Of a DNA stretch of 42,430 bases, positions 4,683 through 36,075 are shown piece by piece. The notes beneath the pieces are model-generated. The model was not told the DNA's origin. It searched no databases and saw only the letters and a list, made by a program, of their open reading frames with translations. The stretch is from Microcaldota archaeon (GTDB lineage Archaea > Micrarchaeota > Micrarchaeia > Anstonellales > Bilamarchaeaceae), in contig JAHJDH010000024.1 of assembly GCA_018812625.1 (NCBI GenBank), positions 1 through 42,430 of the forward strand. Reading direction: 5' to 3'. The position numbers and the translations under genes were made by a program. How positions within the stretch are numbered: the stretch's first letter is position 1; the number at the start of each line of letters is the position of its first letter.

Positions 4683-6434
4683 ATGACAAACATCAACAAG
4701 GCAGTAAGTTTGACTTCTTATCTTATTACCCTTCCAAAATCCCGATATATTGTTGCAGGAATAATAGCTCTTAGTCTGGTTTTTGGAATTTTACTGAACC
4801 TGGAAAAACCCATTGAACAAGCTGCTGCAAACGGGCTGATGGTTTTAGCTCTTCCGGCTCTCATCTCATCACTTGTAGTAAAAATTCTTATTCGGAAAAT
4901 GCCATATCGAAGAATAGCTGCAACTGCTCTTGGAGGAGAGATTGTCTATTCAATTGCCTATGGAATCAGTTTCCTGCTTGTTGGAGTAAATCCACTTTGG
5001 GCTCAATTAGTGATACTTGTTGGCTCTGCTCTTGTTTTTGTTTTATGGTATGTTATTGCGAGATTTGTCTTTATTCTGAAATACAGGTCAATTCTCTTTG
5101 CAATGATCCAGCTTTTGTTCTACTTGTTTTTCCTTGGAAGCAATCATGGTCTTTATTTTGCAGGTGAGCCGTTTATCGATCTTGCAGCCAAGTTCTACAT
5201 ATCCTCATTCGTTCTTCTTGGTGCAATTGCCTTGTTTTTCTTTATTATAAATGCTCCGATGAAAAAGAACTTTGGAATAAGAAGTACTGATGCCCTGTCT
5301 TATTTCTTTGGCCAGTGGCTCTATAATAATAAGGACATGGAAAAAGCGTTTATGCAAGTTGGAGAGCCGGTAAAAACACTGGTTTCTCTAATGGCATTTA
5401 AGAGGAAAAAAGACACTATTTTCTTTGTTACTCCATATGTTCATTTTGGTCCGTTTGGGAACCTTGGCGGAAGTGAATTTTCGCATCTTATCACAAAAGC
5501 AATGGATGAAAAATACAACTCAAGCACATTTGTTTTCCATGGAACTGTAACTCATGATCTAAACCCTGTTTCAACTTCGGAAATGGATAAAATTCTAACA
5601 CTAGTTGACAGCTCTCTAAAATCAGCAGTCTATAAAGATGCAAAAGTTTCTATTTCAACTGGTTCAATGAAAGAATGCCAGGCACAGGCTCTTCGGGTAA
5701 ACAATTCCTCAATGATAAGTCTCTCAAGAGCGCCAGAGCTCACAGAAGATATCAATTTTGGCCTTGGCCTTTCTTTGATGTTTGAAGCTCAAAAGCATGT
5801 AGAAGATGCAATGATAGTAGATCAGCACAATTCTGAGACTGGGGATATTACGAGCTTTGAGCCTGGAAGCCTGGTTGGGTTTGGCTATCTGAATGCCCTT
5901 AAGAATTCTTTAGCAGTTAAAGACTCGAAAAAACCTCTCAAAATCGGAGTTGCAACCAGGAAAATTGATTCTGAAGTTATTGGTGGCGCTGGAATCCGCG
6001 TTGCAGTATTTTCATCTTCTCCGGAATATGTGATTGTTCTAATTGATTCCAATGGAGTTACTCCGAATTTTAAAAATCAAATAGATAAAGAAGTGAAAAA
6101 AATTGGCAAATCCCTTGGAAGGGAATTTATTGTCGGAGTCTTTACTACTGATACTCACCAGACTAATATGGTCAAGGGAGTACTGAACCCTCTTGATACT
6201 GAGAAGTCTCTTATTCTTGCTATTAACAGCGCATGCAAGGAAGCAATTGAGGATATGCAAAGTGCAAAATTCTTCTCAGATACAGAGTGGCTTGATATTA
6301 ATGTTATTGGAGCAAAACAGTCTATTGAGCTTATTTCGACAGTCAATTCAATAGTTGCTGTTGCAAAAATTACCCTGCCGCTTATTTTGCTTGGTGCAAT
6401 TCTGCTTCTGATTGCAATTGCAACCAAGCTGTAG
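4683..6434 (+). CDS. DUF2070 family membrane protein
   Basis: Multi-TM N-terminus, large soluble domain (PYVHFGPFGNLGGSEFSHLI, VFHGTVTHDLNPVS), C-terminal TM; characteristic archaeal DUF2070 layout. Confidence 0.85.
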   Translation: MTNINKAVSLTSYLITLPKSRYIVAGIIALSLVFGILLNLEKPIEQAAANGLMVLALPALISSLVVKILIRKMPYRRIAATALGGEIVYSIAYGISFLLVGVNPLWAQLVILVGSALVFVLWYVIARFVFILKYRSILFAMIQLLFYLFFLGSNHGLYFAGEPFIDLAAKFYISSFVLLGAIALFFFIINAPMKKNFGIRSTDALSYFFGQWLYNNKDMEKAFMQVGEPVKTLVSLMAFKRKKDTIFFVTPYVHFGPFGNLGGSEFSHLITKAMDEKYNSSTFVFHGTVTHDLNPVSTSEMDKILTLVDSSLKSAVYKDAKVSISTGSMKECQAQALRVNNSSMISLSRAPELTEDINFGLGLSLMFEAQKHVEDAMIVDQHNSETGDITSFEPGSLVGFGYLNALKNSLAVKDSKKPLKIGVATRKIDSEVIGGAGIRVAVFSSSPEYVIVLIDSNGVTPNFKNQIDKEVKKIGKSLGREFIVGVFTTDTHQTNMVKGVLNPLDTEKSLILAINSACKEAIEDMQSAKFFSDTEWLDINVIGAKQSIELISTVNSIVAVAKITLPLILLGAILLLIAIATKL

Positions 6435-6696: not shown

Positions 6697-7899
6697 CTAT
6701 TCTTCAGAGCAGAACTCTTCAAGAGCATCAATTACTGCATCTCTTGCCAGGTCATCTCTTTGCTGGTCCGCCCGAGCAAATACCCAATCGAGAAGCTCTC
6801 TTTTTATCAAAACCCTATACAATCCAGAATCAGTCTTGTTTAATTCTCCTCTTCCACTTATTTCCTTTTCTCTAATTAATTTCATTGCAAATTCAATAAT
6901 CTTCTCATCACTCATTTTACTCCAAGGCCTTTTTTTCCCCTGTTTCTCCTCAAACCCAACATTACCCAGCAATCCTCTTTTCCACAAAACCTTGTACAAT
7001 CCAGGATCAACCTTCTCCAATTCATGCCTTCCAGTTATATCCTTCTCTCCTATCAAGTTCCTTGCAAATTCAACAATTTCATCATCATTCATATTCTCCC
7101 AAGACCTTTTCTTTCTGTGTTTCTCCTCAAATCCAACTTCGTCAAGTAGTATTCTTCTTCTCAAAACACCATACAACCCTGAATCAGCCTTCTCCAATTC
7201 TTTCCTTCCACTTATCACTTTCTCTTCCATCACATTCCTTGTAAACTCAACAAGTTCCTCATCACTCATGCCTATCCAGGATCTTTGTTTCTCTTCAAAA
7301 CCAATCTTACCAATCAATCCCCTATTTTTCAAAACATAATGCAATCTGGGATCAGCCTTCTCCAATTCTCCATTTCCACTTATCGCTCCTTCTTCCATTA
7401 TTTTTTGTGCAAACTCAATAAGTTCTTCATCGCCCATACACTTCCAAGATCTTTGTTTCTCCTCAAAATTAACAACTTCAACCAACTTTCTTTTCTTCAA
7501 AATCTTATGCAATCCTGGATATGCTTTTCTGAACTCAAATTTTGTCTTTATCCCTTTCTCTTCCATTATCGTTCTTGTGTATTCAACAAGTTCTTCATCA
7601 CGCATACATGCCCAAGATTTTCGTTTTACTTGTTTCTCCTCAAATCTAACCTTATCGAGTAATTTTCTTCTTCTCAAAATACTATACAATCCAGAATCAG
7701 AATCATACAATTCCTGCTTTCCGGTGATCTTCTTTTCTCTCATCACTTTTCTTGCAAATTCAACAATCTGTATATCTGTCATTTTTCTCCATAACCTTCC
7801 CCTAAAATCAGTGGGGATGTTAGACTGCAAGCCTTCAGCTAAAGGTTCTTTCTTAGAAGTCTTTGCTTTTTTTGCCGGAGGCCTTTGCAGTTTTCTCAT
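6697..7899 (-). CDS. Tandem-repeat protein, six ~56-59 aa repeats, unknown function
   Basis: Six repeats of consensus W..M.DEE(L/I)VEFAR.(I/V)M.EK.I.GR.EL.K.D.GLY.VL.KR.LLD.VGFEEK. Confidence 0.8.
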   Translation of the reverse strand: MRKLQRPPAKKAKTSKKEPLAEGLQSNIPTDFRGRLWRKMTDIQIVEFARKVMREKKITGKQELYDSDSGLYSILRRRKLLDKVRFEEKQVKRKSWACMRDEELVEYTRTIMEEKGIKTKFEFRKAYPGLHKILKKRKLVEVVNFEEKQRSWKCMGDEELIEFAQKIMEEGAISGNGELEKADPRLHYVLKNRGLIGKIGFEEKQRSWIGMSDEELVEFTRNVMEEKVISGRKELEKADSGLYGVLRRRILLDEVGFEEKHRKKRSWENMNDDEIVEFARNLIGEKDITGRHELEKVDPGLYKVLWKRGLLGNVGFEEKQGKKRPWSKMSDEKIIEFAMKLIREKEISGRGELNKTDSGLYRVLIKRELLDWVFARADQQRDDLARDAVIDALEEFCSEE

Positions 7900-35736: not shown

Positions 35737-35866
35737 CGGGCCCGGAGGGATTTGAACCCTCGACCTGCGGATTAAAAGTCCGTCGCTCTACCAAGTTGCT
35801 CTGTACCTTTAGTTAAACAGCATCTCAAGTAAGCTTTTTCAAAAGGTACATCTGAGCTACGGGCCC
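35737..35866 (-). tRNA. tRNA-Lys (anticodon TTT) with 56-nt intron at 35796-35851 (position 15/16, D-loop)
   Basis: Spliced: GGGCCCGTAGCTCAG^CTTGGTAGAGCGACGGACTTTTAATCCGCAGGTCGAGGGTTCAAATCCCTCCGGGCCCG. Junctions fit a BHB: GCTC/GAGC 4-bp helix, AGA and AAC 3-nt bulges, 9-bp intron helix TGTACCTTT/AAAGGTACA. Confidence 0.95.
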
Positions 35867-35930
35867 AACATGTAGGAAGAAGTTTACCTGGAATCATTTA
35901 AAAATGCAACTATTGTAATTACAAAATAAG

Positions 35931-36075
35931 GCCGGGTTGGCAGATCGGTTATGCAGCCGCCTGCAGTTCGCTTTTCGAAGACATTTAATGTCGATGACGA
36001 GTATAAAGCGGCAGAGAGGGGTTCAAATCCTCAAAGATGTTTTATCTTATGGGAGAATATCTCCCTTACCCGGCT
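35931..36075 (+). tRNA. tRNA-Cys (anticodon GCA) with two introns: 35967-36006 (37/38) and 36027-36060 (58/59)
   Basis: Spliced: GCCGGGTTGGCAGATCGGTTATGCAGCCGCCTGCAG^AGCGGCAGAGAGGGGTTCAA^CTCCCTTACCCGGCT, 71 nt. Intron 2 fits a BHB (GTTC/GAAT helix, AAA and ATC bulges). Confidence 0.88.

Follow-up and report, generated by a model that had tools for sequence, protein, structure and literature searches.

The window (the whole 42,430-nt stretch of DNA analysed here) belongs to a 1.27-Mb metagenome-assembled genome (MAG) of the Micrarchaeota (G000; 43 contigs, 85% complete). On it lie a tRNA-Lys(UUU) gene interrupted in its D-loop and a divergent tRNA-Cys(GCA) gene, as follows:

35866–35737, minus strand (contig C4): tRNA-Lys(UUU) gene with D-loop intron
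35852–35866, minus strand: tRNA-Lys(UUU) exon 1, positions 1–15, GGGCCCGTAGCTCAG
35796–35851, minus strand: 56-nt D-loop intron at 15/16, compared below with orthologs with and without an intron
35737–35795, minus strand: tRNA-Lys(UUU) exon 2, position 16 to the discriminator, anticodon TTT
35897–35904, minus strand: TATA-like box TTTTTAAA, lying 38 nt before the start of tRNA-Lys(UUU), assigned by consensus match and position only
35931–36075, plus strand: tRNA-Cys(GCA), divergent neighbour, exons 35931–35966, 36007–36032 and 36067–36075
35967–36006 and 36033–36066, plus strand: tRNA-Cys(GCA) introns, the first of 40 nt at 37/38, the second of 34 nt in the T-arm

With the intron removed, the tRNA-Lys(UUU) gene gives 74 nt that ARAGORN calls as tRNA-Lys(ttt), with a perfectly paired 7-bp acceptor stem (GGGCCCG/CGGGCCC) and a consensus D-loop restored by the 15/16 junctions. 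The first-pass annotation had read a tRNA-Lys with a 56-nt intron at 15/16, and this is borne out with exact coordinates. It had also warned that tRNA finders can miss such genes, as they do here: ARAGORN makes no tRNA call on the unspliced gene, and the Rfam tRNA model (cmscan) matches 35808–35737 at 34.2 bits, which places the 5' end wrongly, within the intron. Because such genes are missed by one program and misplaced by the other, Micrarchaeota tRNA sets can look falsely incomplete. Searches of the 85%-complete MAG with Rfam, with DNA and with a T-arm pattern turned up no other intact tRNA-Lys(TTT), whose presence had been named as an objection to a working gene at this position. The sole other tRNA-Lys found there has anticodon CUU (G000:C40, about 5754–5916; L055). 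Its exons are those of the window gene apart from the anticodon, and its two introns are at about 23/24 and 37/38, with positions 15/16 uninterrupted.

The junctions of the tRNA-Lys(UUU) intron are framed by these elements, all on the minus strand:

35854–35857: exon strand of the central helix, GCTC, positions 10–13, which is also the 5' strand of the D-stem
35842–35850: 5' strand of the intron helix, TGTACCTTT
35802–35810: 3' strand of the intron helix, AAAGGTACA
35798–35801: intron GAGC, a copy of the 3' D-stem strand and predicted partner of positions 10–13 in the precursor
35785–35788: true 3' strand of the D-stem, GAGC, positions 22–25, predicted to be free in the precursor and paired after splicing

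Together they form a 4-bp GCTC/GAGC helix, 3-nt bulges (AG^A and AA^C) at the junctions and a 9-bp intron helix. None of 50,000 mononucleotide shuffles of the intron reached an equal BHB score, and the predicted fold of the precursor lies 4.4 SD below those of dinucleotide shuffles. Ensemble prediction for the precursor pairs exon positions 10–13 with the intron GAGC (P about 0.997) and hardly ever with the true D-stem strand (P about 0.0002); for the spliced tRNA, the true D-stem is given a P of about 0.55. The motif had been described as a textbook BHB. The central helix, both bulges and the 9-bp helix are indeed present, but the outer helix is just 1 bp (0–3 bp across the 14 D-loop introns considered below), short of the strict hBHBh' motif, so the structure is better classed as a relaxed, bulge-helix-loop one. 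According to a review (PMC6379350), relaxed-motif introns are efficiently removed only by (alpha-beta)2 and epsilon2 endonucleases.

The broad-specificity endonuclease predicted by the first-pass annotation appears, from its sequence, to be encoded elsewhere in the genome (contig C22). This epsilon-type EndA has 389 aa in three units (alphaN, alpha and betaC), of which residues 5–389 align to residues 8–387 of the ARMAN-2 epsilon2 structure 4fz2 (E 2.6e-131). Its FRIY, MHS, AHSVKK and GTYK segments align with ARMAN-2 Y236, H251, K282 and K161; in the ARMAN-2 enzyme, Tyr236, His251 and Lys282 are the catalytic triad and Lys161 belongs to the ARMAN-specific loop (PMC6379350), so both the triad and the loop lysine are apparently kept. 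Nearly all relatives of this protein are in genomes named Candidatus Micrarchaeota. RtcB is also encoded in the host genome.

Given this pairing potential, the covariation described below and the enzyme genes, we infer that the gene is transcribed, cleaved at the predicted bonds and ligated in the following way. In the transcript, exon positions 10–13 (GCUC) would pair with the GAGC at the 3' end of the intron instead of with the real D-stem strand. The 9-bp intron helix would stack beside this GCUC/GAGC helix, and the resulting bulge-helix-loop would offer AG^A and AA^C to the epsilon EndA. Cleavage at both junctions would let the intron depart together with the decoy GAGC; RtcB would then join the exons, leaving GCUC to pair with positions 22–25 and complete the D-arm.

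The D-loop intron of tRNA-Lys(UUU) had been read as a case of EndA-type archaeal splicing. This reading holds, and the case is not an isolated one: at least 14 genes with D-loop introns were counted among the roughly 38 tRNA genes that were recognised in the 85%-complete MAG, an inventory compiled by hand from searches and individual stretches that may be incomplete. These are Lys-UUU, Thr-CGU, Arg-UCU, Ala-CGC, Met-CAU, Ile-GAU, a gene read as Ile-UAU, Val-UAC, Val-GAC, Ser-CGA, Asp-GUC, His-GUG, Gln-CUG and Glu-CUC. In both Ile genes the intron is at the bond after position 17, and several of the 14 are interrupted again at 37/38 and in the T-arm. All models were confirmed as substrings of the genome. 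Of 16 spliced models ARAGORN accepted 15, a few of which carry an additional loop base at an anticodon junction, and rejected that of Ile-UAU. A single fixed-junction model for all D-loop introns was tried and failed in several genes, most of which were resolved by shifting the junctions a few bases. Three introns each, in the D-loop, anticodon loop and T-arm, were read in tRNA genes at G000:C23, about 77000–77300 (L148), and G000:C22, about 6800–7050 (L149), the latter rejected by ARAGORN after splicing.

Across the 14 D-loop introns of this one genome, the intron tetramer tracks the D-stem of its own tRNA, with exon/intron combinations GCTC/GAGC, GTCG/CGAC or TGAC, GTCT/AGAC or GGAC, GTGT/GCGC, GCGT/GCGC and TCAG/CTGA. 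The summed motif score is 315, against a mean of 148 and a maximum of 257 when exons are swapped (none of 2,000 swaps reaches 315). Of all the evidence for use of the pairing, this exon-intron covariation is the strongest. Scripted scoring found no more than 1 bp of contiguous intron helix in four of the 14 (Val-GAC, Ser-CGA, Asp and Gln), and their junctions are therefore less certain. The copying of a D-stem strand by the intron is instructive as an arrangement that recurs across the genome, and it offers a simple explanation of how the D-loop can be a recurrent intron site, in that the motif's exon half is conserved tRNA sequence.

The Lys locus was also compared across relatives. Its position is marked by a divergent tRNA-Cys acceptor sequence, which lies upstream of the Lys(UUU) gene at 10 of the 13 loci read in the genus. 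An intron at 15/16 is present in G000, G001, G004, G005, G014 and G015. G002, along with G021, G022, G024 and G019 from other genera of the family, has one after position 17 with a different central helix, TCAG/CTGA; less regular D-loop inserts are found in G006, G012 and G017; and the D-loop is uninterrupted in G010, G003, G013 and G016. The bond differs among sister species (15/16, after 17, or none). With tRNA-Cys marking the same locus, the 15/16 site is occupied in G005, G004, G015 and G014 and empty in G010, G013 and G016; G012 and G013 have upstream sequence and exons in common, with the insert in G012 alone. The mature D-loop is AGCTTGG in every case in which the junctions could be located, and exon 1 of the window gene is identical in intronless Lys(UUU) orthologs. 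Intron sequence varies between species, and the differing introns keep the junction pairing. Most genus orthologs also have a TATA-like box similar to TTTTTAAA at a similar distance from the tRNA. A GCTC/GAGC-class pattern was found in seven of the 17 genomes of the genus (counting that of the window) and is rare elsewhere among 301 Micrarchaeota genomes (seven hits for the reversed control); several matches outside the family, not closely inspected, look like chance. Occupied and empty versions of one locus in sister species make archaeal tRNA intron gain and loss directly testable.

These comparisons bear on whether the gene works at all. It might be a dead tRNA-Lys(UUU) broken by an insertion, with a second, intact copy doing the work, and both the fragmented, 85%-complete state of the genome and the differences in intron sequence between species would fit such a history. 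This is nevertheless improbable in view of the failure of all three kinds of search to find another UUU gene, the perfect acceptor stem and consensus D-loop recovered at the junctions, the pairing kept by the differing introns of related species, and the TATA-like box. The source being a metagenome assembly, the 56-base insert could also be a chimera artefact, but independent MAGs of the genus have differing introns at this very bond, and their pairing matches, which makes this very improbable. That the real gene is instead an intronless tRNA starting within the "intron" at 35808 is scarcely credible: the cmscan match is full-length and above the gathering score, but it gives up the 7-bp acceptor stem for intron sequence, whereas the spliced model is canonical and has the exon 1 of tRNA-Lys(CUU) and of the intronless orthologs. 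The window thus very probably contains a working tRNA-Lys(UUU) gene whose D-loop is interrupted at 15/16 by an EndA-type intron; its transcription, cleavage and ligation are predicted.

The intron belongs to a known class, the relaxed EndA-type introns found in a lineage that has an epsilon endonuclease. In ARMAN-1 and -2 (Ca. Micrarchaeum), tRNA introns with relaxed BHB motifs (BHL/hBH) are cut by an epsilon2 EndA (Fujishima 2011 and Hirata 2012, as cited in PMC6379350 and PMC4033280). Phylum, three-unit endonuclease, relaxed motif class and non-canonical intron positions are all shared with the present genome; as far as the ARMAN systems are known from these citing papers, the difference here is a recurrent D-loop site (14 genes in one genome) with a central helix that copies the D-stem. 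Thermoproteales have non-canonical and multiple tRNA introns and large-scale intron transposition (Sugahara 2008 and Fujishima 2010, as cited in PMC4090602), and resemble this genome in having many genes with one to three introns and related introns in different isodecoders, but they belong to another phylum and have another type of endonuclease. The positions given for them in that review are 20/21, 22/23, 25/26, 29/30, 30/31, 45/46, 53/54, 56/57, 59/60, "etc.", and 3/4; 15/16 is absent from this list, which its "etc." marks as incomplete. Canonical archaeal introns at 37/38 are similar in BHB-type recognition, EndA and RtcB and differ in site and in the outer helix of the anticodon stem, which is absent here. 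A search of a limited literature collection found no paper on Micrarchaeota tRNA introns.

Many tRNA introns of the genus contain a hairpin, CTTTTnGnAAAA-n-CAAAAC. Of the 17 genus genomes, 15 have it, at four to 38 copies each (159 in total, against two for the reversed pattern). In the loci read (L157–L186 and L210–L269) it is in introns of many tRNAs and in both orientations. Among 119 distinct copies read, a scripted criterion places 68 between matching tRNA exons, often 4–7 nt from the exon end, a count that is approximate since exons of adjacent tRNAs can be matched to each other. A further 30 are flanked by a tRNA match on just one side and 21 by none, some of the latter being in tRNAs outside the reference set. 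In the broader motif nnnnCTTTTAGGAAAAGnnnn-nnCAAAAC, the arms vary and stay complementary. It is found a few bases from the junctions of D-loop, anticodon-loop and T-arm introns, sometimes twice, face to face, in one intron, and also just past tRNA 3' ends. Among the sites outside tRNAs are the 3' side of an SRP RNA (L165), sequences resembling intergenic DNA (L221, L224, L176 and L236) and a stretch matching the 3' region of 23S rRNA (L233; G014:C81:1569–2093), where 423 nt cover 241 model positions, which suggests an insert in the 3' part of this 23S rRNA. No transposase was seen consistently beside the non-tRNA copies.

Membership of the window Lys intron in this family could not be shown. 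Its similarity to other introns is weak (best pairwise shuffle p about 0.007–0.02, uncorrected), and its 3' part, AACTAAAGGTACAGAGCAA, resembles an Arg D-loop intron of G014. In the genome of the window, a plain 15-base hairpin pattern is no commoner than its reversed control, unlike the longer pattern with CAAAAC.

A second EndA-like protein (PF01974, 162 aa) is encoded on contig C26 of the host genome (L002, 1447–1935, minus strand) and was compared with 20 relatives (L270–L289); it is present in 16 of 17 genus genomes and in most of the family. In the alignment of these 21 sequences the catalytic His is replaced by Lys or Arg and the catalytic Lys is kept; Tyr is replaced by His in the genus. 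For the M. jannaschii EndA reference row, only columns inside the aligned part were used. The AlphaFold model has an EndA fold (pLDDT 89.5), with archaeal EndA chains as its best PDB matches, including the structural subunit of N. equitans. Any role for the protein as a partner in structure or substrate range is conjecture. It is possible, although somewhat doubtful, that the tRNA introns of the genus spread as a dispersed hairpin element and that an EndA-like partner without the catalytic His widens the range of substrates. Inverted ends of such an element would supply the intron helix, and an insertion would become splicable once its 3' end matched the exon.

The divergent neighbour of the Lys gene is called as tRNA-Cys(gca) once spliced, and no clear splicing motif was found for its T-arm insert. 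At four other loci (L059, L062, L069 and L071), a tRNA gene is adjoined by partial copies of its own end plus a small hairpin, one example being GGTCGCATT, repeated after tRNA-Gly.
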